Below the pieces are notes generated by a model that ran no database searches, was not told the origin of the DNA, and worked only from the letters and a program-made list of their open reading frames with translations. From a virus, in IMG/VR virus record IMGVR_UViG_3300048589_000171, positions 1 to 26,373 of that record: a stretch of 26,373 bases of DNA. One strand, written 5' to 3'. Positions 7,102 through 26,373 of the stretch are shown in pieces (within the stretch, counting starts at the first letter, position 1; every line of letters begins with the position of its first letter). The position numbers were made by a program, and so were the translations under genes.

Positions 7102-7341
7102 ATGCTGCCGCCTGAGTTCCTGCAGCCCGAGGAACTGCAAGCCCTGACCGGCATGCGGCAGAAGGCCGCCTGGCGCCGGTGGCTGGACTCGATCGGCGTG
7201 CGCTACGTGACCACCCCAGCCGGCCTGCCGCTGGTGTATCGTGACCGGCTCACACCCGACAAACCACAGCAGGCCGCCGGCGCGGCGGTGCTGAACCTGG
7301 AGGCGCTGCGTGGCACCCGCAGGACGTCCGCGAGCCGGTAA
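7102..7341 (+). CDS. DUF4224 protein (integrase partner)
   Basis: 79 residues. The first 50 (PEFLQPEELQALTGMRQKAAWRRWLDSIGVRY...GLPLVYR) match DUF4224, a small MerR/Xis-like domain found directly before tyrosine integrases in proteobacterial prophages. The last 30 codons overlap the integrase, whose GTG start uses a GGAGG at 7299-7303 inside this gene. An excisionase-like, DNA-bending role is the usual suggestion for this family but remains inference. Confidence 0.85.
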   Translation: MLPPEFLQPEELQALTGMRQKAAWRRWLDSIGVRYVTTPAGLPLVYRDRLTPDKPQQAAGAAVLNLEALRGTRRTSASR

Positions 7342-11188: not shown

Positions 11189-12214
11189 TCAACCTCCGAT
11201 AGTGCGCGTGAGCGCGTTGTCCTTCTTCTGGCTGCCGAACGACGAGCCGAGCCAAAACGCGGCGACCATGCCGACAGTGGCCAGCACCGCGGTGACGACC
11301 TGAATGCGGATCTCGGCAGACCATCCCGGCATGAACAGCACGGCAGCGACCACGCAGTAGAACGGCAGTAGCAGAGCAATCGAGATCCAGAGCGCAGGCA
11401 TCCGAAATGGCTCGGCAGACGCCGCGACGTTGAACTCACGCGCCCCGGCAATGCCGCCGCCGCCCGCCTCTGTCGCCTCGAACCAGTGCTCGCGGTCGAG
11501 TGCCTCCGTAGCCGCCGCCAAGGCCGCAGGATCGCGCTGGACGGCCTCGACCGCTGCCTGTGCATTCGGCGTGCCGGTCGCCGCCTGGACGATCTCCAAC
11601 ACGGCTTCTGCGGCTTTGGCGTTGCGGTCGGTGACCTGACCCTCGCTGCCGAACGTGCGGATCAGGCCAGGAATGGCTTGCAGTAGCGCCGGGAACAGCG
11701 CGGCGATGATCGGAGCAGGCATCGGAGCCTCCCATGTTGGTTTCGATTCGGTGATCGGCGCGGCACCCGCGAACATTGCCGCTTCGGCAGCGCGGCGCTT
11801 CGTCAGTCCGGCCATGACCTGGCCGTCGTTCAGGTTCCATCGCTGAAACTGCATCTCAGCGCCGTGGTAGTCGCCGGAGTTCAGCAGGCGCAGCAATGTG
11901 GAATCTGAGAAGGCGCCCTGGCCGACGTTCATCGTGAAAGACACCAGCGCGTCGAACTGGCCCTGCCGCAGCGGCACCTCGACCAGCTTGTTAACCGCGT
12001 CCTGCGCTTCCTGCGTATCCCGCTCGAGCAGCTCGACGGCCTCGGCTTCAGTGATCACATCGCCAAGCTGCCACGGACCGCCATCCATCCGCCGGGTGGC
12101 TCCGAAACCTACGGTCACCGGCAGACCATTAGACGAACCAGGATCTGGATACGCTTTGAGTCGCAGGCTTTCGTGTTCGCGGATCGCAGCCAGACCAGCA
12201 GCGGATAGTTTCAT
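11189..12214 (-). CDS. GH24 endolysin fused to a holin-like 3TM-type membrane domain
   Basis: 341 residues, ATG overlapping the upstream holin-like gene by 4 bp. Residues 1-150 are a GH24 lysozyme (muramidase cleaving peptidoglycan): catalytic E15 in IREHESLRL, D24 in YPDPG and T34 in VTVGFG. The E-D spacing is normal, with a short insertion before the threonine; the helical end is VMAGLTKRRAAEAAMF. A typical phage GH24 endolysin ends there (about 150-170 residues). Residues 165-341 add an amphipathic helix (PIIAALFPALLQAIPGLI), an alanine-rich helix AQAAVEAVQRDPAALAAA, an AGAREFN segment and two membrane helices (about 275-297 and 303-325). This resembles the GTA_holin_3TM family. No N-terminal signal or SAR sequence is visible. 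The fusion predicts a membrane-tethered lysozyme. Confidence 0.88.
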   Translation of the reverse strand: MKLSAAGLAAIREHESLRLKAYPDPGSSNGLPVTVGFGATRRMDGGPWQLGDVITEAEAVELLERDTQEAQDAVNKLVEVPLRQGQFDALVSFTMNVGQGAFSDSTLLRLLNSGDYHGAEMQFQRWNLNDGQVMAGLTKRRAAEAAMFAGAAPITESKPTWEAPMPAPIIAALFPALLQAIPGLIRTFGSEGQVTDRNAKAAEAVLEIVQAATGTPNAQAAVEAVQRDPAALAAATEALDREHWFEATEAGGGGIAGAREFNVAASAEPFRMPALWISIALLLPFYCVVAAVLFMPGWSAEIRIQVVTAVLATVGMVAAFWLGSSFGSQKKDNALTRTIGG

Positions 12215-12519
12215 CGCGGCCCCTCGCTCGCTGGATGCCAGAACAGCGTGACGATGATGCTGCCCGCCGCAATCAAAATCAGAGAGACGAGCGACGGAAG
12301 CGAGATCAGGATGTCGCCATCGGTGAACAGCTTGTAGCCGACTCGCGTTGCCAGCGATGTCCATCCGATCGCCATCATCCATCGGCCCGACAGCATTAAT
12401 AGCGTCCCGTACCAGTTGGCGATCCGCCAGTACTGAATCAGCGCGGACGTTGCCGCGAGCAGCATCAGCGCGACATCCAGTTCGACCAAGCCAACTCCGA
12501 CAAAATAGGATTCGTCCAT
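12211..12519 (-). CDS. Multi-pass membrane protein, putative holin
   Basis: 102 residues from the ATG at 12519 (TAATG overlap with the upstream gene). Hydrophobic stretches at about 8-30 (GLVELDVALMLLAATSALIQYW), 36-56 (GTLLMLSGRWMMAIGWTSLA) and 72-95 (LPSLVSLILIAAGSIIVTLFW) suggest three membrane helices. It sits immediately upstream of the endolysin with a 4-bp overlap. Size, topology and position fit a holin that times membrane permeabilisation, but no specific holin family is recognised. Confidence 0.65.
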   Translation of the reverse strand: MDESYFVGVGLVELDVALMLLAATSALIQYWRIANWYGTLLMLSGRWMMAIGWTSLATRVGYKLFTDGDILISLPSLVSLILIAAGSIIVTLFWHPASEGPR

Positions 12520-12770
12520 TACCGCCCCTGCGCGATGAGGGATTTCAATCCTTCCCAAACCGCCAACATCACCGCCGTCGCGATCAGGCCGACAAGCGAG
12601 ATAAGCCCGGTCGATTTCACGCGGTCAAAGAACTCTTTCCGCGCTCGCATTTCCTGCACGAGCGTGACCATTTCGGACGGCGTGACCTCGTATCGCTTGG
12701 CCATCAGCTGCAGGAAGTAGTCCACTTGCGCCGCCACCTTCGCTCGTTCTTCTTCGCTTAGATCGGTCAC
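12519..12770 (-). CDS. C-terminally anchored membrane protein, possible holin/antiholin
   Basis: 83 residues from a GTG at 12770, with GGAGA about 9 bases upstream inside the J gene end. Residues 1-55 are a charged soluble helix bundle (SEEERAKVAAQVDYFLQLMAKRYEVTPSEMVTLV); residues 56-75 (ISLVGLIATAVMLAVWEGL) are one membrane segment. Short proteins of this design lie between J and holin genes in several siphophages. It may modulate the holin; this is inference from position. Confidence 0.6.
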   Translation of the reverse strand: MTDLSEEERAKVAAQVDYFLQLMAKRYEVTPSEMVTLVQEMRARKEFFDRVKSTGLISLVGLIATAVMLAVWEGLKSLIAQGR

Positions 12771-12772
12771 TG

Positions 12773-15424
12773 TCAGGTCTCCGGCCCAATCGACCAGCCC
12801 GAAGGCGTGGTCTGGAGGGCATGCGCCATTCCGATGTACGGCATGGCAAATGACACGTAGGACACGCCAGACGTCACATTCCGACCAGGCCGCAGAACAA
12901 GACGCACAATCGCTGCGCTCGCTGGCGCTGTCACGAACCCATAGATTTGCTTGAAAAGCTCAAGCGACCCCAGTCCTGTGTATTCAGTCTCGGTGTAATA
13001 GAGCGTGTGAAGGTCGTTGTTCAACCCGAGCCCGTAGATGCCGAGATCGGCTCCCGATGCATCCAGGAATTGAACGTCGACTTTGGCGCTTCCACCGGAT
13101 TGCGCCGCATACACCTGGGCCTCGATCCTGTCGCCAGGTCGGCACGGGATTTCAGTGCCAGGGGCGACGAGGTAGTTCGTATAGCCACCGAACAGCGATG
13201 CCGTCCCACCAGACAGCCAGATCACCGCCAGCGCATTAAACGGGATCGGTCGCTGTGCGCCGTGTGTGTTGCCGTCAGCCACATGCGCGACTCGGCCAAA
13301 CGGGATTTCAGCGTAATCCGCGCCAAGCTCGAAATACGTTCCGGCGTTGAAGTGGTAGCGCCAAGGGCTGGCGCTAGAGAGCATGCGAGTATTCGAGTGC
13401 AGGTTGACGCCGATCCCGCCCGTAAACGATCCGCCGTTCACAGCCGCGTCCGGCGAGATCGTTACCGACTGAAAGACCCATGCCGACCGAACGCCGATGC
13501 CGTTGATCGCGCGCGCCTGCACGACATACACCTGATCTCGCGACACACCGTAGATGTCATGCACCAGGTTCTCGGCGGCAACGATGGCCGTCTGCCAGGT
13601 CGTCGCGTTCGCCTTGCGACACCAGAACTCGATACTCTCCACCGACTCGTCCATCTGCTGCCAGTAGGCGCGCAGGTACGGCCGCTGCGATCCGTCCGAC
13701 TCGATCGTGACGAACTCGGCACCCGACGCGAACGTGAGCACCGGCACGGCAACGATCAGCGGATTCGGCAGGTTCGTATTCGGCGCCGGATCAACATTGG
13801 TCAGCTCGCTGTAGCTGCTCGCGTAGATCGCCTCGGCATCTTCCTGAAAGATGCACTGCAACGTGCCGGTCGACGGCGAGTAGACCCGCGACAGGCAGCG
13901 GAACGGCTTTTCATCCCACCCGTAGCGATCGATGGTCCAGGTGACCATCCGGCCCGGATACAGCGCGTAGGCGGACATCTCGAGCGTGCAGGCGAACGTC
14001 AGCGCCTGGCGCGCCTTGTGCAGCATCAGCCGCGCGACCCGTTGCGCACGCTGAACGTCTGTGATCTGCGTCAGGTCGACGTCGAGAATCTCTGTCTCGC
14101 CGTTGTCCAGCGCGACGTAGGCCGGCGACACGTAGGCAGGGAACGAATCCTCGACCCACTTCGTCGGATCGGTGTACCGGCCGCCGATGCCGTTGAACAG
14201 TGAGCCATCCTCGGCAACGCCCTGCACGATGATCTCACCCGGTGCCAGGTCGTCCTCGTCGAGCGCGAGCGATGGCGCTTCCCATGCACCGGCCCAGATG
14301 TACCAGGTTCCGGCTACTCGGACGGCGCTGCCGACCATCGCCTGCAGGATGCGCTCGAGCCCGGCCTTGTGATCCGTCTCGGAACTGATCGAGTCGTCGT
14401 AGGTGTATCGCGCGTGCGTGGTCGACCCGTCGATGGCGACCTCCTCATCGCAGACGTTCGCTGCGGCGATGAGACTCGCTGAATCGTAGGTCTCGTTCGG
14501 AAACCGCTTGCTGATGTACTTCCACGCGATCAGCGCAGGATTGCGCGTCCAGACCGTCGTCGACGTGCGCGGGTCATAGCACTTCTCGCCTCGGATGACC
14601 GCCGAGACGTCGAGGATGCCGGTGGGGTAGATGTCGTTGTTCGCGACCCATGTCCCGGAAATGTACGACGTGCCGGTGAACTTGTCGCTCGCGCTCCAGG
14701 TCGTCGGCAGCGCGGCGATCAGGTACGGGTCGGCCGCCTGGCCTGACGCGCCGAGGAATGCTTTGGCTCGCGCATAGGTGCCGGTCAGGCTGTACGAATA
14801 GTTGACGACGACCGCGCGGCCAATCTGCGCAGCGGCGAACGTCAACACCGTCACCCCGCCGACTGTTGCGCTCGAGTACGCCCGGTCATCGGTCGCCGGA
14901 TCGCCAGCGTAGAACGTCGTCCCGCCGTCGTAATCGAAGGTGCTGCCGCTGGCAACCGATGAGATCGCGGTCGCAAGCTGCGGCAGCGTAACCGTCTGGC
15001 TCGTGCTGACGGTAAACGACCCGAATGCAGGCTCGGTGCGGGTAACGCCGTATGGCGCCTCGGTTGCGAACCCGTTCGCGTCGCGCGCACCGATCGACGA
15101 ATCGCCGAACCAGACTTCCTCGACGGCGTCGATCTCGTCTCCGAGCGCGACGACGAAATGCAGCCGCTCGGCATAGTCGCCGCTTGTGCCGGGGAATTGC
15201 ACCTGGCCGGACGTGCGGATGCGGCCGAACAGGTGCGGCCGGTCGGCCGTCGCCTCGCGCACCATGACATTGCGGTCGGAAATCTTCGAGTCCGCCGCGC
15301 GCTGCGCCTTCTTGCGCTGTTCGTTAGCGGTGTAGATGCCGACGATCATGCTGGCCGCAGCAAGATAGCCGGCGGTTGCGCCTGTCGTCAGAATGCTGCC
15401 GAGCGCCAGTGCGAATCCGAGCAT
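12773..15424 (-). CDS. Tail tip/host specificity protein J-like (TipJ)
   Basis: 883 residues, ATG one base after the upstream stop. It opens with a hydrophobic stretch (MLGFALALGSILTTGATAGYL...), as J-like proteins do. The conserved N-terminal block follows: DRNVMVREATADRPHLFGRIRTSGQVQF and HFVVALGDEIDAVEEVWFGD. The middle contains tail-hub motifs (AYALYPGRMVTWTIDRYGWDEKPFRC; about 480-510). Around residues 555-655 is a fibronectin type III-like domain (RAYWQQMDESVESIEFWCRK...YVVQARAINGIGVRSAW). The last 200 residues form a beta-rich tip domain. It would close the tail tube and contact the host receptor. It is the last tail gene before the lysis block. Confidence 0.85.
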   Translation of the reverse strand: MLGFALALGSILTTGATAGYLAAASMIVGIYTANEQRKKAQRAADSKISDRNVMVREATADRPHLFGRIRTSGQVQFPGTSGDYAERLHFVVALGDEIDAVEEVWFGDSSIGARDANGFATEAPYGVTRTEPAFGSFTVSTSQTVTLPQLATAISSVASGSTFDYDGGTTFYAGDPATDDRAYSSATVGGVTVLTFAAAQIGRAVVVNYSYSLTGTYARAKAFLGASGQAADPYLIAALPTTWSASDKFTGTSYISGTWVANNDIYPTGILDVSAVIRGEKCYDPRTSTTVWTRNPALIAWKYISKRFPNETYDSASLIAAANVCDEEVAIDGSTTHARYTYDDSISSETDHKAGLERILQAMVGSAVRVAGTWYIWAGAWEAPSLALDEDDLAPGEIIVQGVAEDGSLFNGIGGRYTDPTKWVEDSFPAYVSPAYVALDNGETEILDVDLTQITDVQRAQRVARLMLHKARQALTFACTLEMSAYALYPGRMVTWTIDRYGWDEKPFRCLSRVYSPSTGTLQCIFQEDAEAIYASSYSELTNVDPAPNTNLPNPLIVAVPVLTFASGAEFVTIESDGSQRPYLRAYWQQMDESVESIEFWCRKANATTWQTAIVAAENLVHDIYGVSRDQVYVVQARAINGIGVRSAWVFQSVTISPDAAVNGGSFTGGIGVNLHSNTRMLSSASPWRYHFNAGTYFELGADYAEIPFGRVAHVADGNTHGAQRPIPFNALAVIWLSGGTASLFGGYTNYLVAPGTEIPCRPGDRIEAQVYAAQSGGSAKVDVQFLDASGADLGIYGLGLNNDLHTLYYTETEYTGLGSLELFKQIYGFVTAPASAAIVRLVLRPGRNVTSGVSYVSFAMPYIGMAHALQTTPSGWSIGPET

Positions 15425-15425
15425 C

Positions 15426-15698
15426 TCAGATCACCTTATGCGCTGCGAACGCTTCGGACATCAACCGCATCGGGCCGGCGGCAGGCACGGCGTACTGGCC
15501 GACGCAGATGGCGAGCTGCGCGCCCTCGAACTCGACCAGGTCGCCGCGCTTCGCCAGCCGCCATTCGACCGTCTCGCCAAGTTCGCCGCCGCACTCGGCC
15601 AGCCATCCATCGACCCATGCCTGCTCGCCGATACCGTCCGGCCGCGCGCGAACGTACCGCGCCAGCCGCTCAGGCCAATCTTCGCGTCTTATCCCCAT
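15426..15698 (-). CDS. Shortened DUF6950-like tail assembly protein
   Basis: 90 residues from the ATG at 15698, overlapping the 3' end of the Ig-like gene by 10 bp. The N-terminus (REDWPERLARYV) and C-terminus (KRGDLVEFEGAQLAICVGQ...) resemble the two ends of DUF6950 proteins, small relatives of the K/NlpC-P60 tail peptidases. The central segment that normally holds a W-G-x-x-D-C motif is absent: about 40 residues seem to be missing, leaving a WVDGWLAECGG link. Peptidase activity is therefore unlikely. It sits in the K position before J. Family assignment is moderate. Confidence 0.6.
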   Translation of the reverse strand: MGIRREDWPERLARYVRARPDGIGEQAWVDGWLAECGGELGETVEWRLAKRGDLVEFEGAQLAICVGQYAVPAAGPMRLMSEAFAAHKVI

Positions 15699-16666
15699 CG
15701 CTTGAGCCACTCCCGGTTCGGCCAGATGATCTGGCGCTCGACGTTGTCCTTGACGCGCGAGAACGCGGTGTCTGCCGGATCGATCTTGCGTTGATCCGCG
15801 TCCGAGAACCGACGCGGCTGCGGCCGACCCATGCGCTTGACCACCGAGACACAATTGACGATGACCTTCGCCGAGCCGACCGTGCTGTATCCCGGCGCTT
15901 CGGCGACCGCCGTCACCGTGATCAGTACGCCGTCGCTGTCAACGCCGTCACAACTGGCTGTCAGCGTCGTGGTGCCTGCCACCAGCGCCGGCAGGGGGAC
16001 GACGACTCGGCCGTCAGCGCCAGTCGTGCCGGACGAAGGCGATGCAATGACAGCGCCGGACGTTGAGGACCATGTCACGGTGACGCCGGCCACCGGATCG
16101 GCGTTCTGATCCAGCACCCGCGCCGTCGCGGCGGTTGTGTTGCCCACCTCGATCGAAACCGCCTGCACAGAAAGCTCGACCGTCGTCACCTCTATCACGA
16201 CGATCGGCGGCGGGTCTTCGCCGACCATGTTCGTCGGCTGCGTCTGCGCCGTCAGCCCTTCGATTTCAGCCGTGATCGTCGCGGTGCCGATCGCAACCGC
16301 CGTGACCCTGGCCGTTGCCTCTCCGTTTGCATCAGTCGCCGCAAGCAGTGCGACCGTAGAAACGGACGGATCGCTAGACTCGACCTCTGGCGAGACATTC
16401 GGGATTCGGTCGCCGTCCTGATCCTCGACGGTGACGAGCATGTCATACGTTCCGCCGACGAACAGCGTCGATGATCCGACCAGCGTCACCACCGCGATCT
16501 GCGGCAGCCTGCCGCTGCCCGAGATCGACTCACCCACGTCCGCAGTCGATTCGACCTCGGCCCAGTAGGCGCGGCTCACCTGCACCATCGCGCCGACCTC
16601 GGCCCAGTAGACGCGCGAAACCGGGATCGGCTCTTGCTCTACCTCTGCCCAATAGACCTCGCTCAT
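15689..16666 (-). CDS. Ig-like (Big) domain tail protein fused to a minor-tail C-terminus
   Basis: 325 residues, ATG after the upstream fibre gene stop (TGACATG). Residues 4-38 carry three Y-W-A-E-V repeats (Y5, Y20, Y34), about 15 residues apart. Residues 57-145 and 155-255 look like two bacterial Ig-like domains (the first Big_2-like, with TLVGSSTLFVGGTYDMLVTV; the second Big_1/invasin-like, with VLDQNADPVAGVTVTWSS...GADGRVVVPL). Residues 266-320 are different: SAKVIVNCVSVVKRM, RRFSDADQ, then PADTAFSRVKDN and QIIWPN. This resembles the C-terminal end of minor tail proteins of the DUF2163/BR0599-like type, whose N-terminal part is encoded at 18944-19339. Ig domains on phage tails may bind surface glycans; that is family knowledge, not shown here. 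Confidence 0.75.
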   Translation of the reverse strand: MSEVYWAEVEQEPIPVSRVYWAEVGAMVQVSRAYWAEVESTADVGESISGSGRLPQIAVVTLVGSSTLFVGGTYDMLVTVEDQDGDRIPNVSPEVESSDPSVSTVALLAATDANGEATARVTAVAIGTATITAEIEGLTAQTQPTNMVGEDPPPIVVIEVTTVELSVQAVSIEVGNTTAATARVLDQNADPVAGVTVTWSSTSGAVIASPSSGTTGADGRVVVPLPALVAGTTTLTASCDGVDSDGVLITVTAVAEAPGYSTVGSAKVIVNCVSVVKRMGRPQPRRFSDADQRKIDPADTAFSRVKDNVERQIIWPNREWLKRWG

Positions 16667-16667
16667 G

Positions 16668-17699
16668 TCACGCCTTCACGAACCGAAGCCGAAGATCGCC
16701 CCAGTCGGTGACGCTTGACTGCTCGCCGCTGGTGAGCGTTTCCTCGTATGTCGTCGCTGAAACTGGCGAGTAGTTCCACGATGCAATCTGCGTCGAGCCC
16801 TCGCGCAGGCTGACGGTGCATTCGCCCTGAATTCTGAAACGTACCGTCGTCTGCCACCCGACCTGTGGCTCGGCAATCGTCGACAGCGCGACCTCGCACG
16901 TCCCGGCTGACGACGCCTCGATGTAGTCCGCATCCGATGGCGTTTCCTCGTCGAGCATCGCGTACAAATCCGAGCCGCTTGAAGCCGTCCAGGTGCCTGC
17001 CGACACGTCGGAATCCGGCCGCGCGGTCGTCGACGTGACCGAAGGTGCAAGCGCAACCCGATGGACGGTGACGCGAGCACTGCCTCCGCCGGACACCGAA
17101 ACAGAATCCGCGACAGTTCCGGTCGCGCCTGGCGATGCTGCTGTGCGCTCATAGATCGCAAGTGCCCGAGGGTCATAGTTGGCGATGACCTCGACCCGCT
17201 TCGTCCAGCCAGAGATCGTCGGCCAGACTGGGGTCGCGCCCACCGTCGTGAACCGCAGCCCGACGATGATCACATCCAGGCAGTCCGAGACCGTCGTCGT
17301 GATCGATGGGGCCGTGAATGAGTACGGGGACGCCGACAGCACTCCAGATATCGTTGCCGCCGCGCTGACATCAACGCCTGACGACCCCGAGTAGGCGAGC
17401 AATGCCGTCGCGCCGTTGAACGAATCATTGAAGCCGAAATCGTATGTTGCAGGCTCGCTGGCCCCGGCGGTCTTGACAGCCGACCATGCCCCGGTCGATG
17501 GCGCGGTTTCAGTCGTTGATGAATGCAGTGCCGAAAAACCGGACGGCAGCGTGGACAGGGTTCGATTGCCGTCGTTGTTCACGGCACCGAACAGCAGAAT
17601 GTCCGCTGCCGCTGTTCCCGACGGCTTGGTCATCGTGACCACGCCATCGGCTGAGTAATCGAACGCCGAGAAGTGCGCGCGGTATGCGGGTGCGGTCAT
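16668..17699 (-). CDS. Beta-sandwich tail fibre-like structural protein
   Basis: 343 residues from the ATG at 17699, with GGAG 7 bases upstream; a TTG two codons earlier is less likely. Residues 20-215 match a repeated phage adhesin-type domain (VVTMTKPSGTAAADILLFGAVNNDGNRT...GASEPATYDFGFNDSFNGATALLAYSGS), in which a 'PSG..adDiLl' strand begins a beta sandwich. The last 60 residues (VSLREGSTQIASWNYSP...DLRLRFV) resemble the C-terminal domain of accessory tail proteins. Low in charge and rich in S/T/A. Likely a virion surface protein in the fibre cassette. Confidence 0.72.
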   Translation of the reverse strand: MTAPAYRAHFSAFDYSADGVVTMTKPSGTAAADILLFGAVNNDGNRTLSTLPSGFSALHSSTTETAPSTGAWSAVKTAGASEPATYDFGFNDSFNGATALLAYSGSSGVDVSAAATISGVLSASPYSFTAPSITTTVSDCLDVIIVGLRFTTVGATPVWPTISGWTKRVEVIANYDPRALAIYERTAASPGATGTVADSVSVSGGGSARVTVHRVALAPSVTSTTARPDSDVSAGTWTASSGSDLYAMLDEETPSDADYIEASSAGTCEVALSTIAEPQVGWQTTVRFRIQGECTVSLREGSTQIASWNYSPVSATTYEETLTSGEQSSVTDWGDLRLRFVKA

Positions 17700-17701
17700 T
17701 G

Positions 17702-18943
17702 TCAAACTCCGATGAATGGCGGCGGGTTGTTGCGGATTTGCGCTGCTGTCACCTGGCGCAGTGAATAGAAGGCAAACAACTGCCAGTCGTTCGTGAAATA
17801 CTTGAAGCGGGAATAGCCCATCGGGTCGTTCGTGACCCCGACCTCTTTGCGAGTCGTGCCGTTGGCAACCAGTTCGTCTCGATAAAAGTCGCCGGCACCC
17901 GCGCCTAGAATCCGGCAGGCGGCGCGATCATCGGCACCGTTCGGGTTGTCGAGGATCTTCCGGCCGATAAAGCACGACGCGAGCGCCTGGTACGCTGGCA
18001 GCACCAACGGCGTCGTGAATTCATGCCAGTTGTGGCCCTCGTACAGTCCCCGGCCGATGTCTCGAACCGATGCGCCGCCGCCGTTGGCCGACTCGTCGCG
18101 CCACGTCGCATTGTTCATCGCCGTCGCCTCATTGCCCCACGAATTCGGAGGCATGTAAGCGCCAGGTGCCGGGCGATGGTTATGCAATCGCCACACGCCG
18201 CCGAGATCGAGATACCAGAGCTGAAGGTCACGGCATTGAATCCGCGTATTTGGCGCCTGGTTGCCCGTATAGGGACCTGGCACGCGCCACGCCCGTGCCG
18301 CATCGGTGCTACTGATGTTCTGCGAGTCCTCCATGATGTGAAACCACATCAAACCATGTGTCCAGCCAGACGGTCGCGGGTAAGAATCTGGCCACCCAGC
18401 ACCCGACCCCCACCCACTGATGAACTCCAGCACGTCACACGGCCCGTCGTGAAACAAAGCCATGTCAGCAATCAGCGTCTCGACGTAATCTCCGTCAACC
18501 GTCGGTTCCTCTGGTTCCTCGACTGGTGGTGGCGGCGGCGGCAGATCGTCGGTTGCAAGCAGTAGCACGAACGTCCCGCGCGTGATCGGCGTGTCAGCCG
18601 CAAGCGCATTCGCAAGCCGAAGCGTCCCTTCGCCGACCCCGGCAGAGAATCGGCAGACTTCATCGCCGTTCGAGTCTTTGCAGATCGCAAGCGTCGGCGT
18701 TCCCGAGCCCGTTTCGGGATCGGTGAACGTGCCCGGCCGGATCGGATACCGGCCATCGGCTTGCACCGCGCCGACTGTCCACGCGCCCGTTTCGACAGCG
18801 CGGATCAGCCCATCGCCGTTGTGCAATTCGATCGTCGATCCGGCGTCCAGCAGCGCAGCGAACGCATCCGCCCGCGCCTTCGTGCGGCGCGCCGTTGCGA
18901 GTACCGCAGTCCAGGCGTCAGCACTGAGAACAACGTCCGTCAT
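17702..18943 (-). CDS. Tail fibre-like protein with proline hinge
   Basis: 413 residues, ATG directly after the stop of the shortened minor tail gene. Residues 1-130 are an N-terminal virion-attachment-like domain (IELHNGDGLIRAVETG...GEGTLRLANALAADTPITRGTFVLL). A proline-rich hinge follows (DDLPPPPPPVEEPEEP, about 132-147). The C-terminal 265 residues form a distinct domain rich in Trp, Gly and Tyr (FISGWGSGAGWPDSYPR...WYLDLGGVWRLHNHRPAPGA...). This could recognise a surface glycan, but I see no catalytic triad I can name. The module appears to be a hinged receptor-binding protein. Confidence 0.7.
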   Translation of the reverse strand: MTDVVLSADAWTAVLATARRTKARADAFAALLDAGSTIELHNGDGLIRAVETGAWTVGAVQADGRYPIRPGTFTDPETGSGTPTLAICKDSNGDEVCRFSAGVGEGTLRLANALAADTPITRGTFVLLLATDDLPPPPPPVEEPEEPTVDGDYVETLIADMALFHDGPCDVLEFISGWGSGAGWPDSYPRPSGWTHGLMWFHIMEDSQNISSTDAARAWRVPGPYTGNQAPNTRIQCRDLQLWYLDLGGVWRLHNHRPAPGAYMPPNSWGNEATAMNNATWRDESANGGGASVRDIGRGLYEGHNWHEFTTPLVLPAYQALASCFIGRKILDNPNGADDRAACRILGAGAGDFYRDELVANGTTRKEVGVTNDPMGYSRFKYFTNDWQLFAFYSLRQVTAAQIRNNPPPFIGV

Positions 18944-19339
18944 TCATTCCACCCCGTCGATGACAGGCATCGTGTCGATTTGCAGGTCGGCTTCGAGCGT
19001 CGGCGTGCCCTGAATCGCGCCGGCAGAATTCATCGCCGCAACCCATACCTGGACCCGCTTGCCCTTGCCGAGCCCGAGAAGCGCCAGCGAAACCAGCGAG
19101 GCATTGACTCCGGATAGTTCAAGCTGCATCGCCGTCGACTGGATCTCCAGCGATTCCTCGATGTCGCTCATGCCGAGCAGCGTGCCGTCGCCGAGCCAGA
19201 CATGGCCGTCATAGGTGACGTTCCGGCCGGCGGTCGTCAGGTACATCGGCGTGTCGAAGTCAAGCTTGATCAGCTCGCACTTCTTGACGCCGCGTGCTGC
19301 AAAAAGCGTGTTCTGCTCTGTCGTGAGTGTGCGTGCCAT
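18944..19339 (-). CDS. N-terminal part of a DUF2163/BR0599-like minor tail protein
   Basis: 131 residues, ATG overlapping the upstream stop (TAATG). The sequence follows the N-terminal part of DUF2163/BR0599-like minor tail proteins: CELIKLDFDTPMYLTTAGRNVTYDGHVWLGDGTLL, then LELSGVNASLVSLAL and GKRVQVWVAAM. Family members as I know them run to about 190 residues and end with a RRY/F-x-x-x-DQ...P-G/A-D...F...I-W segment. Here the protein stops after IDTMPVIDGVE, before that segment. The missing C-terminal segment is found about 3 kb downstream, fused to the Ig-like gene (residues 266-320). This gene probably encodes part of the tail-tip complex, downstream of the tape measure. Confidence 0.75.
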   Translation of the reverse strand: MARTLTTEQNTLFAARGVKKCELIKLDFDTPMYLTTAGRNVTYDGHVWLGDGTLLGMSDIEESLEIQSTAMQLELSGVNASLVSLALLGLGKGKRVQVWVAAMNSAGAIQGTPTLEADLQIDTMPVIDGVE

Positions 19340-19959
19340 TACCAGCTCGGGTCTTCGATGAGCGTGACTGGGAAGGCCGGCGCGATGACCGATGCGTAGG
19401 TCATCGGAACAATGGATTCCTCGACCCTGAATGTTGTCGTCGGCTTGACCACGACCACCGCTGCGCCACCGCTGACCGCGCCGACCAGCGGCGGCACGAA
19501 CGACACCGCTGTCATGACGCCCGCTGACGACGTGACATCGGCGACGGCCTGGACAAGCTGCGTGCCGCCGGCCGTCAGCGCGACAGAGAACATATCGCCG
19601 GCAAGCAGTGTGAGACCGGTGGTTGCGACGATGTTCATCGTGCTCGCGCCCTCGGCCGCTGCCGCGCTCGTCACTGTATTGGCGCGCAGCGTTCCACGAG
19701 GCTCCGGCCTGGCCATGTGCCACAGCGCCACGTCTATGTCCGCATCCGTGGCCGAATTCCAGAATGCCTCGATCGTCGCCATGTCCGCGTGCGTGTGCGG
19801 CGTGTAGATCATCGTCACGGCCCACAGCGCGCCGATGTGCTCGATCGTCTTGCGGCGCCGCGTCAGCGGGTTGCGCCGCTGGTCGAGGTTGCGCTGCAGG
19901 TAGATCGTGAATTCCGCAGGGATAAACGCCCGCGTCGACGGATAGGTTTTCGTCGTCAT
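19339..19959 (-). CDS. Minor tail protein (tail tip assembly)
   Basis: 206 residues, ATG overlapping the tape measure stop by 4 bp. N-terminal RAFIPAEFTIYLQRNLDQRRNPLT, then LWAVTMIYTPHTHADMATIEAFWNSATDADIDVALWHM and a beta-rich middle, ending with VTLIEDPSW. Equivalent proteins sit directly after the tape measure in proteobacterial siphophages and in the gene transfer agent layout (where the position is filled by DUF2460 proteins). I rate it a minor tail protein by position and by the pattern. The exact family is uncertain. Confidence 0.7.
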   Translation of the reverse strand: MTTKTYPSTRAFIPAEFTIYLQRNLDQRRNPLTRRRKTIEHIGALWAVTMIYTPHTHADMATIEAFWNSATDADIDVALWHMARPEPRGTLRANTVTSAAAAEGASTMNIVATTGLTLLAGDMFSVALTAGGTQLVQAVADVTSSAGVMTAVSFVPPLVGAVSGGAAVVVVKPTTTFRVEESIVPMTYASVIAPAFPVTLIEDPSW

Positions 19960-22010
19960 GCCATCGACCGCCTGCGCTGATCAGCCATCGTTGCCACCGC
20001 GACATTGCGCATCATCGTCATCAGCCGCGCTTCCTGACCGCGCGTCATCTCGCCGTTGATCGTGATCTGCGGCGCCACCGTGAGCCCTGCGGCACCGTTC
20101 GGCACGATGTACCCATTCGAGCGCGGCACGAACATCTCCGGACCCTTTTCGCCGACCAGGTAGGCCGTGCCGCCGGCCACTGGACCGCCCGCCGCTCGCT
20201 TGCCGCCGAACAGGAACGAAAGCGCGCCGCCAAGCGCGCCGCCGACCTCGCCAGTCTTGGCAAAGTTGCCGAGCAGCGTCCGCGCCAGATTCGCCGCGGC
20301 AGCCTCGGCAATCATCCGTTTGAGCATGCCGCCGAACGACTTGCCGATTGACTCGAAATTGCCGTCGAGGATGTCGTACAGGCCCTGGCCGAGTGCGTCT
20401 TGAATGTTTCGTGCGGCCTGCAGCGTGAGCTCGTCAAGCTCCGTCCTGACTCTGGTCAGTCCGGCGAACACGCCGTCAGCTTCATTTCCGAGCAGGAACC
20501 GCGCCAGCGCCCCCTCACTCTCGGACAGGCCACCCTGCTGCGGCCCGAGCGCCACCGCGTCCATCACTTCTTCGTACTGGCGGGTGAATTCGCGCGTGGC
20601 GTCCGTGGCGTCACGCCATCCCTCGGCGATCTTGCGCAGCCGCTCGGTCTCGGATTCCTCGAAGCGCGCCGCCTTCTGCTCGAGCTCGAGCTGCAGCTTG
20701 AACGCCTGCTCTGCGCGGTACACGCGATCAGACTCGCGACTCTCCGACGCCGCGATGACGTCGAACAGCGGATCGGAAAACACGCCGGCAGACTTCTTCG
20801 CCCCGGCGCCGGCAAACCGTGCATTCGATGCCGCGACCAGCTTGCGGATGTCGGCTTCCGACTTCCCAGCCGCCTCGCCAGCCTTGCGGATTTCCTCTGC
20901 CGCCCTTGCCGCCCTCTCGGCATTCGTCGAGTAGGTCTTTGCGAGCGCATCCCAAGCAATTTTGGCGCGGATGACCGCAGATTGGCGCTGATCGAATTCG
21001 ACTTGTTCTGTCGCGCGCTCGCCTTCCTTGAACTGCTGCGCACTTTGCCGAAGCAACTTGTCACGCTCGGCGCGAAGCTTGGCCGCCTGCGCCGCTGCAA
21101 ATTGGTTGCTATCTCCGGCGCGCTCGTACTTGGCAATCTGCTCGTTGAGCTCGCTTATCCTCTCGCCGATCTTCGGCACCGCTGAAAGCTTGTCGAGCTG
21201 CTCCGCCACAAAACTGATCGCGCGGCCAATCTCAAGCAACGGCCCGCCCGTCTCTTTCTCGACCCGGTTTATCAGGCGACCAAACGAATTCCCGAGTTGC
21301 GTAAGCGACGACTCGACCGTCGGCACAATCTTCTTGAATTCTTCGTCAACAGTCGCCGCTACATTGGAGAACGCGAACGCGATGCGCTCGGCGGAAAGCT
21401 CGCCATCCGCCGCCATCTTCCGCAGTTGGCCTATGCTAACGCCTAAACCCTCGGCGATTGCGTAACCAACCCTTGAGGTTCCCTCCATCACCGAATTGAA
21501 TTCTTCGCCGCGCAGCGCGCCAGCCGCCAGACCCTGCCGAAGCTGAGTCAGGCTGTTGCTGGCCTGCTCTGCGGATGCGCCAGACAATGCGACGAGCTTC
21601 GACAAGGTGTCGAAGAACTGCAACTGCTGGTCCTGCGTTCCGATGGATGACCCGGCGGTGCGGGAGATCTGCGCGTAGGTCGTCGCCAGCGACGTGTAGC
21701 TCTGGCGCGTGCGCTGCGCGATCTCGAAGATGCGCGATTGCGCGGTGGCCAATTCGTTCGCTGTGCGAACCGCATTCGCAAGTTGCGAATCGACGTTTTT
21801 GTAAGCGTCCGAGATTGCAACGATGCTGCGCACCGCCAGGCCGCCGACGATGGCGCCGCCGAACGCCCTCACGCCAGCCGTCAACGTGCTGAACGCCGAA
21901 CCGACCGTCCGCGCCTGGCCCTGCAGGACCGACAGAGACTGCCGAACGGATTGGAATGCGCGACTTGTATCGTCGGTCGCGGTAATGCGAACTGTCGCCT
22001 TTTCAGCCAT
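19956..22010 (-). CDS. Tail tape measure protein
   Basis: 684 residues. I take the ATG at 22010, which makes a TGATG junction with the chaperone gene; a GTG one codon earlier is possible. The N-terminus ATVRITATDDTSRAFQSVRQSL leads into the tape-measure N-terminal domain (residues about 60-260; AYKNVDSQLANAV...IFEIAQRTRQSYTSLATTYAQISRTA...GASAEQASNSLTQLRQGLAAGALRGEEFNSVMEG). Long charged helices follow (about 280-490). The end has LARFL and a LGALGGALSFLFGGK-like hydrophobic glycine stretch, then APQITINGEMTRG. At about 1.5 angstrom per residue the tail would be near 100 nm, an estimate only. It sets tail length and enters the host membrane on infection. Confidence 0.92.
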   Translation of the reverse strand: MAEKATVRITATDDTSRAFQSVRQSLSVLQGQARTVGSAFSTLTAGVRAFGGAIVGGLAVRSIVAISDAYKNVDSQLANAVRTANELATAQSRIFEIAQRTRQSYTSLATTYAQISRTAGSSIGTQDQQLQFFDTLSKLVALSGASAEQASNSLTQLRQGLAAGALRGEEFNSVMEGTSRVGYAIAEGLGVSIGQLRKMAADGELSAERIAFAFSNVAATVDEEFKKIVPTVESSLTQLGNSFGRLINRVEKETGGPLLEIGRAISFVAEQLDKLSAVPKIGERISELNEQIAKYERAGDSNQFAAAQAAKLRAERDKLLRQSAQQFKEGERATEQVEFDQRQSAVIRAKIAWDALAKTYSTNAERAARAAEEIRKAGEAAGKSEADIRKLVAASNARFAGAGAKKSAGVFSDPLFDVIAASESRESDRVYRAEQAFKLQLELEQKAARFEESETERLRKIAEGWRDATDATREFTRQYEEVMDAVALGPQQGGLSESEGALARFLLGNEADGVFAGLTRVRTELDELTLQAARNIQDALGQGLYDILDGNFESIGKSFGGMLKRMIAEAAAANLARTLLGNFAKTGEVGGALGGALSFLFGGKRAAGGPVAGGTAYLVGEKGPEMFVPRSNGYIVPNGAAGLTVAPQITINGEMTRGQEARLMTMMRNVAVATMADQRRRSMA

Positions 22011-22635
22011 CACAGCGCCTTGAAGAATGACACCGGATCAGCTTCCGGCGCGTCGCGGCTCGGCTCGAGCGGCATGAAGTCCAGCGGCACGGCAGGCTCG
22101 GCGCCGTCCTTGCGCGAGCGGCCGGCATAGTTGGCGACCGTGGCGGCGATGATCCCGGCCTGCAGGTCGCCGCGACGCGGACCAATCGGAGAACGGCGGC
22201 TGTATTCGATCCACATCTCAAACTCGGCCGCGTCCATCGTACTGATCAGCTCCTTGAATGTGCGTCCGAGGCAGAGCGCGAGCGTCATCGCAAACTCGAC
22301 CTCGGCCGTTAGTTTTTTTCGACGTCCTCCGCGCCGCGACTCGTGAGCATCGTCACTTCGCCCACCAGCTCGAGCACCGCGTCCGGGTGGTTCGAATTGA
22401 ACCGCGCCCACCCGTCCACGTCGTACACCGGCTGGCCGTCACCCGCGATCACGCACGCCGCCAGCACCCGCAGCGAGAAGTCCGCCGGCCGCGTCCCGCC
22501 GGCATAGGCGCCTGCCTCGAGCCGAAGGTCGAGCGGCATCGGCCGCACTTCGACGTCGCCACCGAGCGCCTCGACGCCGACCACCTTGTTTCGCCAGGGT
22601 GGCGGCGGCGGGATCTTGTCTCGCGCGAGCAGCAT
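22010..22635 (-). CDS. GT-type tail assembly chaperone made by -1 frameshift
   Basis: Translation starts with the G product (22635) and slips -1 at AAAAAAC (plus 22312-22318). It then continues in the 22010 frame for about 100 residues (LTAEVEFAMTLALCLGRTFKELISTMDAAEFEMWIEYSRRS... ending DPVSFFKAL). The T part carries the EFEMWIEYSR segment seen in phage T-type chaperone extensions. The stop overlaps the tape measure start. The fusion should bind the tape measure protein during tail assembly, as lambda gpGT does. Frame +0 ends 1 codon after the slip site. Confidence 0.85.
22266..22318 (-). promoter_or_regulatory. Programmed -1 frameshift signal
   Basis: Slippery A-AAA-AAC (plus 22312-22318) is in the correct frame (GAA AAA AAC TAA). 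Six bases later CCGAGG (22300-22305) can pair with CCTCGG (22266-22271). Inside that loop CGAG (22295-22298) can pair with CTCG (22279-22282). Together they make a nested stem that could stall the ribosome. Slip efficiency cannot be judged by eye. Confidence 0.85.
22309..22635 (-). CDS. G-type tail assembly chaperone
   Basis: 108 residues from the ATG at 22635, two bases after the stop of the tail tube gene. A proline run (KIPPPPPW) near the N-terminus is followed by a beta-rich middle (VRPMPLDLRLEAGAY) and a C-terminal helical part (HPDAVLELVGEVTML). It ends D-V-E-K-N at TAA (22309-22311), just after the slippery heptamer. Position between tail tube and tape measure, plus the frameshift, identify it as the G-type chaperone. 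Confidence 0.85.
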   Translation of the reverse strand: MLLARDKIPPPPPWRNKVVGVEALGGDVEVRPMPLDLRLEAGAYAGGTRPADFSLRVLAACVIAGDGQPVYDVDGWARFNSNHPDAVLELVGEVTMLTSRGAEDVEKN

Positions 22636-22637
22636 AG

Positions 22638-23285
22638 TCAGGCGGCGTAGACGGTCGGACGGCCGTTCATCGACAGCGTGACCTGAGTCGTGACAACACC
22701 CGGCGCCGTGCCACCCGGCAGCAGCGTCGCCGAGACGCGGCCCAGGAACACCACGACGGCGCCGTCGGCAAACTGGATCTTTGCGCACTTGTCCGTCTGC
22801 GAATCCGCCGCAGCCTTCAGCGCGACCAGTCCGGCGTCCGCCGGGTCCCAGGTGCATTCGAACTGATACGTGATCGGCGTGGTCGGACCCGGAATGTCGC
22901 GCCCGAAGTTTTCGCTCACGTAGTAGATCGTCTCGACCTGCGCCTCGCCGCCAGACACTGTCAGGCCGGTGGCCGTCGCAAGCGTCGTGCCGAACGTGAC
23001 GACCGCGGCCGTGCCGCTGGTAAACGTATCGTAGGACGTGGTGTTCTCGCCCTCGAGCTCGAAGTCGTCGGTGCCCGTGTCCACGTTCGCGACCCGGAAC
23101 ACCCGGCCGTCGACCTGGTACATGCCGCTGACCGACAGAAGCACGAAGCTGCCGTCCGTGGGATCGGCGCCTGTGTACTCGACGACCCCCGGATTGGCCT
23201 TGCTCAACGTGTCCACGGTGACTGCCGTGGCTTTCGCGGACTCGATCGTGATCGAGACGTTCGACCACCGTTTGATATTTGCCAT
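22638..23285 (-). CDS. Major tail (tube) protein
   Basis: 215 residues, ATG with AGGAG 6-7 bases upstream, eight bases after the upstream stop. Beta-rich throughout: RWSNVSITIESAKATAVTVDTLSKANPGVVEYTG, GTDDFELEGENTTSYDTF, then TPITYQFECTWDPADAGLVALKAAADSQT and a C-terminal TTQVTLSMNGRPT. This pattern (I-x-x-x-x-A-x-V, 'FE.D..d.T.Y..F', 'W....l..L..A') is typical of lambda gpV-like tail tube proteins. It lies directly before the G/GT chaperones, as expected. It polymerises into the tail tube around the tape measure. Confidence 0.85.
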   Translation of the reverse strand: MANIKRWSNVSITIESAKATAVTVDTLSKANPGVVEYTGADPTDGSFVLLSVSGMYQVDGRVFRVANVDTGTDDFELEGENTTSYDTFTSGTAAVVTFGTTLATATGLTVSGGEAQVETIYYVSENFGRDIPGPTTPITYQFECTWDPADAGLVALKAAADSQTDKCAKIQFADGAVVVFLGRVSATLLPGGTAPGVVTTQVTLSMNGRPTVYAA

Positions 23286-23293
23286 GATGACTC

Positions 23294-23743
23294 CTAGATA
23301 AGCGTTCCCGGCGCATTGGCCGCGGTTGCGTAACTGACCCGAAAGCGCATCGTCTGCTGCGCGACCGGCATGTCGCCAGATGCGTCGAAAACTGGTGCCT
23401 CGATCGCGACGAGCGCGATGTCCGCCTTGCCGCTGGCCAGCGACCCGCCGCCGAGCACCGTCTCGACCTCGAGCGCGATGTCGTCCATCGTGTCATCCAG
23501 ACCGGACGCAGACCGAGCGCAGGCAATCACCTGGATCTCGAGCTCGCGATTGAGCATCGGCGCGGTATGGATCGACGCAACCTCGACGACCTCGACGCCA
23601 GTCGTGACCATCAGCGCCGGCAGCTCAGAGGTGAGCAGCGGCCGCGCCTGCGGACGATCGGCGAACACCCGCGCGCCAGTCGTCGACAGGCCGGTGACGG
23701 CCGTCACGACCGCATCTCGCAGGGTTTCGCGTGCGTGCGGCAT
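23294..23743 (-). CDS. Tail terminator/minor tail protein U-like
   Basis: 149 residues, ATG overlapping the upstream stop (TGATG). Starts RETLRDAVVTAVTGLSTTGARVFADRP, with ELPALMVTTGVEVVEV and LNRELEIQVIACAR, followed by a helix GLDDTMDDIALEVETVL. This strand-helix pattern is that of the tail terminator group (lambda gpU-like), which caps the tube and joins it to the head. It lies between the head-tail joining protein and the tail tube gene. Sequence similarity in this group is weak, so the call leans on position. Confidence 0.72.
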   Translation of the reverse strand: MPHARETLRDAVVTAVTGLSTTGARVFADRPQARPLLTSELPALMVTTGVEVVEVASIHTAPMLNRELEIQVIACARSASGLDDTMDDIALEVETVLGGGSLASGKADIALVAIEAPVFDASGDMPVAQQTMRFRVSYATAANAPGTLI

Positions 23744-24015
23744 CAGGTCGGCGCCTGCAATCTGGCGAGCGTCACGCCGGTCCCGTCAAGCTCGACGTTC
23801 GCCACCGTGTACGACGTGCCGGTAATGACCAGCGTGTTACCGCGCGCAAGCGCAGGCGCATCGGCCGTTGCGAACACGAACTGCGGCGCGCGGCCGGCAA
23901 AGTCCAGCGTCTCGGCGTAGGCGTTGTCGAAATGGCCGTTGACCGTCGCGGTCCCGTAAGTCGCGGCAACCGCCAGGTCGGCAGTCGAGAAGAACGCGGA
24001 CAGATCCTCGATCAT
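23743..24015 (-). CDS. Head-tail joining protein
   Basis: 90 residues from the ATG at 24015, overlapping the end of the methyltransferase-glycosyltransferase gene by 4 bp (ATGA). A longer in-frame reading upstream lies inside that gene and is rejected. An acidic helix MIEDLSAFFSTADLAVAATYG leads into beta strands (TVNGHFDNAYAE..., ALARGNTLVITGTSYTV). This is typical of the small lambda gpFII/HK97 gp10-like connector proteins. Position before the U-like gene fits. Confidence 0.72.
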   Translation of the reverse strand: MIEDLSAFFSTADLAVAATYGTATVNGHFDNAYAETLDFAGRAPQFVFATADAPALARGNTLVITGTSYTVANVELDGTGVTLARLQAPT

Positions 24016-25535
24016 GCCGCCTTCCTCTGTTCGGTGAGCCACTCGAGGTATTCGCCGACGACGTCCGCGACCTGTTCCGGCTTGATCGACGCCTGGCAGG
24101 CCGCGGCGCGGCTCACCGAGTCCATCGTGCAGGTTTCCATCGACGTGTGAATGCGGTGGCACGGGTAGCAGTCGAGCCCCTCGACGGCAATCGATACCGT
24201 TTCCGGCCAATCGCGCGTGAGGTTTTCCTGCGTCGAATGCGACAGCAAAACGATCTTGAGCATCGGCTCGAACGAGACAGCGTTCGTGATCGCCGATTCC
24301 GGCCCGATCACGACGTCGGCGACTTGCGCGAACGCCAGCGCCTCGCGGATCGACCCCCCGCGGCCGACCATGTGGATACGCTCGGATTCCGGCGGTCGAT
24401 CCCCGGCGGCATCGCCGAGCACGACGACATGCACGCCACGATCGGCGAGCAGCTCGGCGCATTGCGCCCAGTGCGGCCACCACTTGAACTGCCCCGATCC
24501 AGCGGGGTTGAGCACCGCCACCGGCCCGGCCATCCGCGAGCGAGCCTCGATCGCGACGGCGCGTTCCGTCTCGGTCGGATGAAAACGCACGCGCGGCTCA
24601 TACGGCACGCCGCACCAATCATGCACGGTCTGCAGGTAGTTCTGGTTCATCACCCGTCGGCGCACTTCGTCCGACCAGTAGAACTCGAAGTCCTTCGGCG
24701 TCGGCAGCAGCCGCGTCTCGATCGACCCGACCAGGTTCAGAAACCGGTTGTACTTGCGCTGCTCGTGCAGGAAGTAGCTGACGAGATTCAGGCCCGAGAA
24801 CAGGTAGTCAGGCATCTTGATGATGCGATCGATGTTCGGATCGTGCCGCAGCACTTCCTCGCCGGGGTCTTGCGTGTAGACCGTGACGTGGTAGCCGTCG
24901 GCCTTCAGGTGCGGCAGCACCGACGACAGCCACAGCGCATCGCCGAACGCGCCAAGGCGCACGAGCGCAAGCGACTTTTCCGGCCTCGCCTCTGACAACT
25001 CGACCTGTTCGTAGCCGGCGCGCTTGCGGTAGACCTGCAGGAACGAGTATTCGTCGCGCTGCGTGCGCGTCTCGTTGACCACCAGATCCCAGCCGCCGAG
25101 CGCGCGCATCGCCGAGACGATGTCATCAGGAACGAAGTCGTGCTTGTGGTCGGGGTTGGCGCCAGGCTCGCCGATGCGCGGATAGTGGTCCGCGTGCGGC
25201 AGGTACAGCGCCAGGTGTCCGCCGACCTTCAGAATCCGCCACCACTCGGCCAGCGCCGCCTGGTAGTCCTCGATGTGCTCGAGCGTGTGCGATGAAAACA
25301 CGCAATCGAACGCCTCGGGCGCGAACATCGAGAGGCTTTCGGCCTGCGCGCCCAGGTCCGGCCGGATCGGAATGCCGAATAACTGCGTGTCCTTGCAGTT
25401 GTCGACGCCGAGGAACGAGTCGAACACCTTCTCGGCCCCGCAGCCGATGTCGATGCCACGCCCGCAAGCGTAGGGCACGATGTCGAATCGCACCTTGGCT
25501 GCTTCGTTACCCTCCGGGTTGTCCGCCTTCCACAT
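24012..25535 (-). CDS. Class I methyltransferase fused to GT9 heptosyltransferase-like glycosyltransferase
   Basis: 507 residues. Residues 25-170 are a SAM-dependent methyltransferase (Methyltransf_11-like): motif I GIDIGCG (27-33), acidic V-D after the next strand (D45), then FDCVFSSHTLEHIED (76-90) and LKVGGHLALYLPH. Residues 187-500 are a GT-B fold of the GT9 heptosyltransferase type: SLALVRLGAFGDALWLSSVLPHL (N-terminal acceptor domain), AVLNPAGSGQFKWWPHW (340-356), VVVLGD (371-375) and FAQVADVVIGPESAITNAV. In that last donor-site segment, family members usually have D-x-x-x-H. A C-terminal Cys cluster (C456, C459, C469, C480) matches a cysteine-containing loop of heptosyltransferases. It lies between the capsid and head-tail joining genes, so a virion component is a likely acceptor. 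LPS, DNA and cell-wall targets are not excluded. No clear Shine-Dalgarno is visible. Confidence 0.85.
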   Translation of the reverse strand: MWKADNPEGNEAAKVRFDIVPYACGRGIDIGCGAEKVFDSFLGVDNCKDTQLFGIPIRPDLGAQAESLSMFAPEAFDCVFSSHTLEHIEDYQAALAEWWRILKVGGHLALYLPHADHYPRIGEPGANPDHKHDFVPDDIVSAMRALGGWDLVVNETRTQRDEYSFLQVYRKRAGYEQVELSEARPEKSLALVRLGAFGDALWLSSVLPHLKADGYHVTVYTQDPGEEVLRHDPNIDRIIKMPDYLFSGLNLVSYFLHEQRKYNRFLNLVGSIETRLLPTPKDFEFYWSDEVRRRVMNQNYLQTVHDWCGVPYEPRVRFHPTETERAVAIEARSRMAGPVAVLNPAGSGQFKWWPHWAQCAELLADRGVHVVVLGDAAGDRPPESERIHMVGRGGSIREALAFAQVADVVIGPESAITNAVSFEPMLKIVLLSHSTQENLTRDWPETVSIAVEGLDCYPCHRIHTSMETCTMDSVSRAAACQASIKPEQVADVVGEYLEWLTEQRKAA

Positions 25536-25634
25536 GATTTGTCGGTGCCCTATGCGACGCCCTGGAGGTGTTTCGGTGACAGGCCGCAGGGCTCACAGCT
25601 TTTCGGGCGATCGACCCTAGTCACCAAAACTCGA
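25536..25634 (-). promoter_or_regulatory. Short intergenic region with inverted repeats downstream of capsid gene
   Basis: This 99-bp gap is unusual in an operon where most genes overlap. GGTGAC (plus 25575-25580) and GTCACC (25620-25625) are perfect inverted copies, and inside them AGGG (25588-25591) can pair with CCCT (25615-25618). The mRNA after the capsid stop could fold into an attenuator that lowers expression of later genes relative to capsid. No T-tract is present, so it is not a full intrinsic terminator. Confidence 0.4.
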
Positions 25635-26373
25635 TCAGGCTGCGTAGTCTTTGGCCACCGCGAAGGAAGCCGCGCGGCGGATCGCCACGTCGACGTCCTG
25701 CAGCGCCACGACCCGCACCGTGCCGGTGTTGCTGGCGGTGTACGGATCGACCAGAAGGTCGAGGCCGCCCCACTGGCCGATCATCAGGTCGTTCCAGTTG
25801 CCGAAGATGGCAGCCGAGCGGCCGGTGGTCGTGCCTTTGGTCAGGTTGGACGGAATCTGGTTCGTGACGAACGTCCGGTAGCCGTTGACCGTGTTGCTCG
25901 GCATTTCCCAGATGAAGTCGGTGACGGCTGTCGACATGGCGATGGTCTTCAGCGCACCGCGCGTCTTCGAGTTGAAGAAGTACGACAGCGCGCCCATGTC
26001 GGCGTTACCCGCGGCGACCAGCGTCTCCAGCTCGACGATCGAGGCCCAAGTCGGAGCGCCGCCCTGCGCGCCGATGGTCGTCGTGCCGACCGAAGTCGAT
26101 GCGAGGATGCCCGACGGCTCGCTGCCGGTGCCGGCGCCGTTCAGCGCGGCCCGGTCGATCTCGGTGCCGATCTGGCCGTACAGGTCAGCGCGGACCATCG
26201 CTTCGACGTCCATCGAGGATTGCAGGACCAGCTTGCGGCTGAAGTCGACCCAGGCGCCGACGGTTTTCGGCGTCAGCGTGACCTGGCCGAACGTGATGTT
26301 GCCTTCGGTCGGCGCCGTGCCTTCCGCCACCCAGTAGGCGGTCGCACCGGCAGCCTTCGACGGGATCGCCACC
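25635..26373 (-). CDS. HK97-fold major capsid protein (5' end outside window)
   Basis: 246 codons are visible, C-terminal part; the N-terminus lies beyond the right edge. The frame runs open through the edge, so no start can be given. Typical capsid motifs are present: the AIPSKAAGATAYWVAEG strand, VTLTPKTVGAWVDFSRKL (A-domain/spine region), then LYGQIGTEIDRAALNGAGTGSEPSGIL, the conserved A-L-N-G-x-G segment of HK97-family capsids. The C-terminal block has NWNDLMIGQWGGLDLLVDPYTASNTGTVRVVALQDVDVAIRRAASFAV. It forms the icosahedral shell. A prohead protease and portal should lie beyond the right edge. Confidence 0.93.
   Translation of the reverse strand, partial: VAIPSKAAGATAYWVAEGTAPTEGNITFGQVTLTPKTVGAWVDFSRKLVLQSSMDVEAMVRADLYGQIGTEIDRAALNGAGTGSEPSGILASTSVGTTTIGAQGGAPTWASIVELETLVAAGNADMGALSYFFNSKTRGALKTIAMSTAVTDFIWEMPSNTVNGYRTFVTNQIPSNLTKGTTTGRSAAIFGNWNDLMIGQWGGLDLLVDPYTASNTGTVRVVALQDVDVAIRRAASFAVAKDYAA

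Follow-up and report, generated by a model that had tools for sequence, protein, structure and literature searches.

A methyltransferase–GT9 glycosyltransferase fusion beside the capsid gene of uncultured phages: a candidate enzyme for virion glycosylation

Introduction

Enzymes of glycosyltransferase family GT9 mostly act on LPS-type acceptors, and ADP-heptose is the donor of the characterised GT9 heptosyltransferases. Among sugar O-methyltransferases, RebM and AtmM act on secondary-metabolite sugars. TibC is a protein heptosyltransferase that uses ADP-heptose; its four cysteines, spaced CX2C X15 C X11 C, form an iron finger that is required for activity (PMC4358343). Some phage glycosyltransferases glucosylate DNA (discussed in PMC12619734). 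Moreover, capsid glycosylation by phage-encoded glycosyltransferases is described for mycobacteriophages Che8 and Rita (Freeman et al. 2023, as cited in PMC11256854), and Maravista, a related phage, has its glycosyltransferases near the 3′ end of the genome (PMC11256854). Our literature search returned no report joining a heptosyltransferase with a glycosylated bacteriophage capsid.

Here we analyse a gene in which a methyltransferase is fused to a GT9-like glycosyltransferase. It lies in a viral window, by which we mean the whole stretch of 26,373 nucleotides studied (IMG/VR record IMGVR_UViG_3300048589_000171, positions 1–26,373). The likeness to Che8 and Rita, as far as PMC11256854 describes them, is the glycosylation of capsid proteins by phage-encoded enzymes, which we propose for the fusion phages from the genes alone. 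There are differences too. A single GT9–methyltransferase chain is encoded beside the capsid gene, not near the genome end as in Maravista, and the hosts are of Proteobacteria type.

Results

The fusion gene runs on the minus strand from an ATG at 25535 to a TGA at 24012 and encodes 507 amino acids. A previous sequence-only reading had described it as a methyltransferase–GT9 fusion situated between capsid and head-tail joining genes and coupled to the next gene by 4 bp, and all of this holds. Both Pfam domains score above their cut-offs in one open frame. Specifically, residues 1–183 (24987–25535) form a class I SAM-dependent methyltransferase half (PF08241, 2e-11) and residues 184–507 (24012–24986) a heptosyltransferase-like GT9 half with GT-B fold (PF01075, 1e-5). 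Upstream, the window end truncates the gene of an HK97-type major capsid protein, leaving its C-terminal part (25635–26372; PF05065 8e-41, phrog_617 1e-70). Downstream follow head closure Hc1 (23743–24015; phrog_82 5e-11), whose start shares an ATGA with the fusion stop, the tail terminator (23294–23743; phrog_4204 6e-17), the major tail protein (22638–23285; phrog_584 5e-33) and the tape measure protein of a siphovirus-type tail module (19956–22013; PF20155 6e-55), all on the minus strand. Dozens of independent contigs show an unbroken fused frame, so it is not an assembly artefact. GC3 of the two halves is 0.87 and 0.85, as compared to 0.90 in the capsid gene; since codon usage of both halves is like that of the capsid gene, the fusion gene looks long resident.

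Two further reading frames of the window deserve mention. An endolysin ORF at 11189–12382 (minus strand) has a seemingly membrane-spanning C-terminal part with a match to a different phage family (phrog_1544), so that a fusion of the endolysin–holin type is possible. An integrase-like ORF at 7310–8377 (plus strand) matches a tyrosine recombinase model weakly, and the window phage may therefore be temperate.

The AlphaFold2 model of the fusion is confident (pLDDT 91.7, pTM 0.88). The sequence-only reading had suggested a structure comparison with both enzyme types; the model matches heptosyltransferases and SAM methyltransferases. The GT half gives structural Z scores of 22.9 with 3tov, 22.4 with WaaF, 19.8 with TibC and 18.8 with WaaC; those with 3tov, WaaF and WaaC assign the predicted half to the GT-B heptosyltransferase fold. 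Sequence similarity is weak. Glyco_transf_9 (PF01075) is matched over residues 299–464 with 25.3 bits against a cut-off of 22, and some relatives fall below it (18.6 bits in L192, no match in L193). Sequence comparison of the GT half with the PDB gave weak matches only, the best being 3tov (E 0.015). For this reason the correspondence with TibC is read from the aligned ranges alone: D199 would fall at TibC D110 and C480 at TibC C370, as offsets at range ends and not as a residue alignment.

In an alignment of 44 members, with relatives 42–76% identical to the window protein, the (nearly) invariant positions of the GT half include G198, D199, S347, K351, W353, P354, R397, E413, C456, C459, C469 and C480. 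D199 would be the catalytic Asp and K351 the donor-phosphate Lys, each invariant or nearly so. The fusion and WaaF/WaaC (CAZy GT9) are alike in the GT-B fold, the donor-site Lys and the catalytic Asp. Unlike them, the fusion is not in an LPS operon and carries a fused methyltransferase. It stays far below cut-off with the NCBIfam heptosyltransferase equivalog models, e.g. TIGR02195 for LPS heptosyltransferase II (WaaF) gives 11.8 bits against 134.6.

With TibC and its BAHT relatives the fusion shares a GT9-like catalytic fold, the catalytic Asp, the donor Lys and a four-cysteine cluster near the C terminus. It differs from them in its phage head context, in the fused methyltransferase, which occupies the N terminus where the TibC-type β-barrel is absent, and in the cysteine spacing, which is CX2C X9 C X10 C. 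Membership in the BAHT (TibC/Aah) family was rejected, as TIGR04414 (hepto_Aah_TibC) did not match the fusion; a Paraburkholderia BAHT scored 1.9e-200 with the same model. The C-terminal cysteine cluster pointed out in the sequence-only reading is present (C456, C459, C469, C480), and it loses its diagnostic value because similar clusters are common in ordinary GT9 enzymes, LPS-type ones included, as seen in a control with host genomes. After this control we no longer took the iron finger to prove that the acceptor is a protein.

The methyltransferase half matches Methyltransf_11 (PF08241) over residues 61–109 with 44.8 bits against a cut-off of 21.2. Both motifs named in the sequence-only reading, GIDIGCG and HTLEHI, are found in the window protein; the profile score, the SAM motif GIDIGCG and D45 place this half among class I SAM methyltransferases. 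The (nearly) invariant positions in the 44-member alignment include D29, G31, C32, G33, D45, SSHxLEH and NPDHKHDF. Given that the active sites of both halves are conserved, most members are read most simply as a pair of working enzymes. L192 has a degraded SAM motif, and a separate methyltransferase gene lies close by.

In structure the methyltransferase half matches 3dli (Z 16.4) and, with lower scores, RebM (3bus) and AtmM (6uvq); its sequence profile also matches AtmM (6uv6). The likeness to these sugar O-methyltransferases is thus one of fold and profile, and identity is low, about 20%. Cellular free-standing relatives of this half have a GT9 gene directly adjacent in 21 of 35 loci. GT9 genes make up 24 of 69 neighbours at ±1, as compared to 10 of 229 at ±4 to 8. 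These pairs are adjacent separate genes and not fused, the methyltransferases are about 29–39% identical, and the loci resemble surface-polysaccharide clusters, as read from the sequence alone. Fold likeness and partner genes suggest that the methyltransferase half may methylate a sugar hydroxyl.

The sequence-only reading had proposed a search for the same fusion next to capsid genes of other phages, and it was found there in two head types. Wherever a siphovirus-type capsid gene is in view, the fusion lies 13–1159 bp downstream of it (110/110 fetched loci), in 99 of them at 440 bp or less; the loci were mostly fetched through the fusion, with repeats included, so that 110/110 measures consistency and not frequency. 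Podovirus-type heads are represented by 36 loci on 34 contigs with the capsid gene followed by the fusion or by the GT half. Here the order is scaffold, a capsid gene from a different family, in many cases a decoration-like gene of 130 aa, and then the fusion or GT half, often with gp4-like and gp10-like genes. Exceptions are four loci, three of them distinct (L071, L072 and L073/74), where the fusion adjoins portal or terminase. Homologues lying consistently beside LPS or DNA-modification genes would speak against a role in the head; the phage homologues lie in head modules.

Some phages do without the fusion. A scan with the L001 capsid protein found capsid relatives of 29–55% identity in which small head genes come after the capsid gene, in some relatives with a Bbp16-like gene, and then Hc1 or the terminator. 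Judging by gene content, the capsid-adjacent slot is optional and exchangeable. On the capsid tree, presence or absence of the fusion needs 3–4 changes. The fusion tree tracks capsid type with 5 changes, the minimum possible being 4. Within it the clade of the window protein falls inside the sipho2 copies, a placement of moderate support, and this suggests that the fusion entered the same slot by transfer one or more times.

Several loci hold other genes around the capsid. In L211 (7903–9122) and L231 a pair lies between the capsid and head-closure genes, consisting of a 174-aa gene with a weak, below cut-off MptE-like match and a class I methyltransferase; it is possibly an alternative modification cassette. 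In L043 a 276-aa gene of no known family (7168–7998) stands between capsid and fusion. Group I introns (Rfam RF00028, above gathering score) were found at or near breaks of the capsid gene in three fusion-bearing podovirus-type loci (L090:7424–8437, L097:3435–3762 and L182:4356–4649), and the capsid break of L090 also holds an HNH-like ORF on the opposite strand.

The sequence-only reading had regarded such a system as uncommon. This has to be revised, since the fusion is widespread in uncultured phages, though absent from the cultured phages of the collection searched. IMG/VR yielded 211 relatives with the window protein as query and 554 with the family profile; many of the contigs overlap or are near-copies. 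No full-length match was found among 50,697 GenBank phage records. With the full-length protein as query against GenBank phages and plasmids only the methyltransferase part was matched, at 22–29% coverage; neither the GT-only form nor, in a near-identity DNA search, positions 12000–26373 of the window matched GenBank phages. About 16 (nearly) full-length copies are found in bacterial isolate or metagenome-assembled genomes. Among the isolates are Paraburkholderia rhynchosiae WSM 3937, Paraburkholderia sp. C35 and Aromatoleum anaerobium LuFRes1; the loci hold scaffold, capsid and decoration-like genes and are in this respect prophage-like. A terminase search with a single model in three host genomes, which is uninformative as a search, gave no match.

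Discussion

It is well supported that the fusion belongs to a bifunctional class of sugar-transfer and methylation chemistry. The sequence-only reading had gone further and proposed glycosylation and methylation of a virion protein or of a sugar on it. From that proposal the two enzyme halves, the head-module slot and glycan building with methylation as the likely chemistry stand; the virion-protein acceptor, the donor sugar, late expression, the order of steps and the benefit are what we infer. On balance we consider it probable that a late-expressed enzyme puts a methyl-capped sugar, probably derived from ADP-heptose, on a head protein. The fusion gene would be expressed late with the head module. 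Its GT9 half, with D199 and K351, would transfer a sugar to newly made head protein, i.e. a capsid or decoration protein. The donor is most likely ADP-activated, such as host ADP-heptose, because this is what characterised GT9 heptosyltransferases use. The N-terminal half would then O-methylate the transferred sugar with SAM, and the fusion would couple both steps, much as adjacency of the methyltransferase and GT9 genes probably does in bacteria. Particles would come to bear methyl-capped glycans, plausibly as a shield or with an effect on their surface and stability. A head protein as acceptor is suggested by the gene position, and we propose the major capsid protein as the acceptor or its neighbour. 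Capsid proteins with and without the fusion showed no distinguishing insert, domain or C-terminal tail; the few Ser/Thr differences between them are confounded by phylogeny.

A narrower form of this explanation is that the GT half acts, like TibC/Aah, as a direct protein O-heptosyltransferase, its four cysteines forming an iron finger that recognises the protein substrate. TibC is among the best structural matches, the offsets pair D199 with D110 and C480 with C370, and the finger spacing is similar. Nevertheless, 3tov and WaaF score higher than TibC, the cysteine cluster occurs in LPS GT9s as well, and both the TIGR04414 match and the β-barrel are missing, so that we regard this form as possible yet doubtful. 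It is also conceivable that the target is a polysaccharide of the host surface (LPS core or O antigen), modified late in infection; a methyl-capped sugar added there might, for example, keep progeny from adhering to debris or prevent superinfection. The classical GT9 enzymes work on LPS, WaaF and WaaC are among the top structural matches, and the cellular methyltransferase relatives adjoin GT9 genes among glycan-type genes in surface-polysaccharide-like loci, which keeps a host glycan as a live alternative. What makes it unlikely is the association of the gene with capsid genes, seen in two unrelated head types, and not with tail-fibre, lysogeny-conversion or integrase regions; moreover, among the neighbours searched we identified no gene for a glycan flippase or polymerase.

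The optional, exchangeable nature of the slot, which holds other genes in L211 and L231, would also suit a cargo (moron) gene that acts on the host, has nothing to do with virions and was merely inserted beside the capsid genes. This we consider improbable, as very divergent phages with two types of head retain both the position and the fusion, and the fusion tree agrees closely with capsid type. Hypermodification of phage DNA with a methylated sugar, which the sequence-only reading had mentioned as an alternative, has DNA-glucosylating phage enzymes as its precedent and found no support in our analysis. Enzymes of the nearest folds and families have carbohydrates or small molecules as acceptors, and the partner genes in cells are of glycan type. 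We identified no gene for nucleotide-base modification next to the fusion, whose slot is in the head module. We therefore think it highly improbable.

Coming back to a methyl-capped sugar on a head protein, a bolder version can be put forward tentatively, as something we would not yet expect to be true. In diverse uncultured phages one shared slot of the head module may be dedicated to glycosylation of the virion. The single enzyme most often found in it would attach heptose directly to a capsid or decoration protein and afterwards cap this sugar by O-methylation. If this is true, it would be a heptosylated virion, of which we know no report, and the enzymes would form a lineage of protein glycosyltransferases separate from BAHT. 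Glycosylation of the particle would then be usual in many environmental phages and not a mycobacteriophage curiosity, and a compact, genetically simple enzyme would build and cap a glycan in one chain. Bacterial isolates carry copies in prophage-like loci, so that an experimental test is already feasible.

The GT half is found alone in 19 podovirus-group contigs, with no methyltransferase-half match in the fetched stretch, and occupies the same slot wherever a capsid gene is in view. This makes the GT the apparent core and the methyltransferase an apparent addition, kept by most members. Other modification-type genes are found near fusions: TylF-type O-methyltransferases in six loci (two confirmed by Pfam), a second family with O-methyltransferase-like fold in eight loci, and a GT2 gene in L087. 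Directly before the GT-only gene, three loci carry a Gly/Asn/Ser-rich protein of 400–465 aa (L193:4640–5935, L195:2270–3487 and L198:4541–5935). Its L193 copy had no Pfam match, and the protein is a candidate acceptor.
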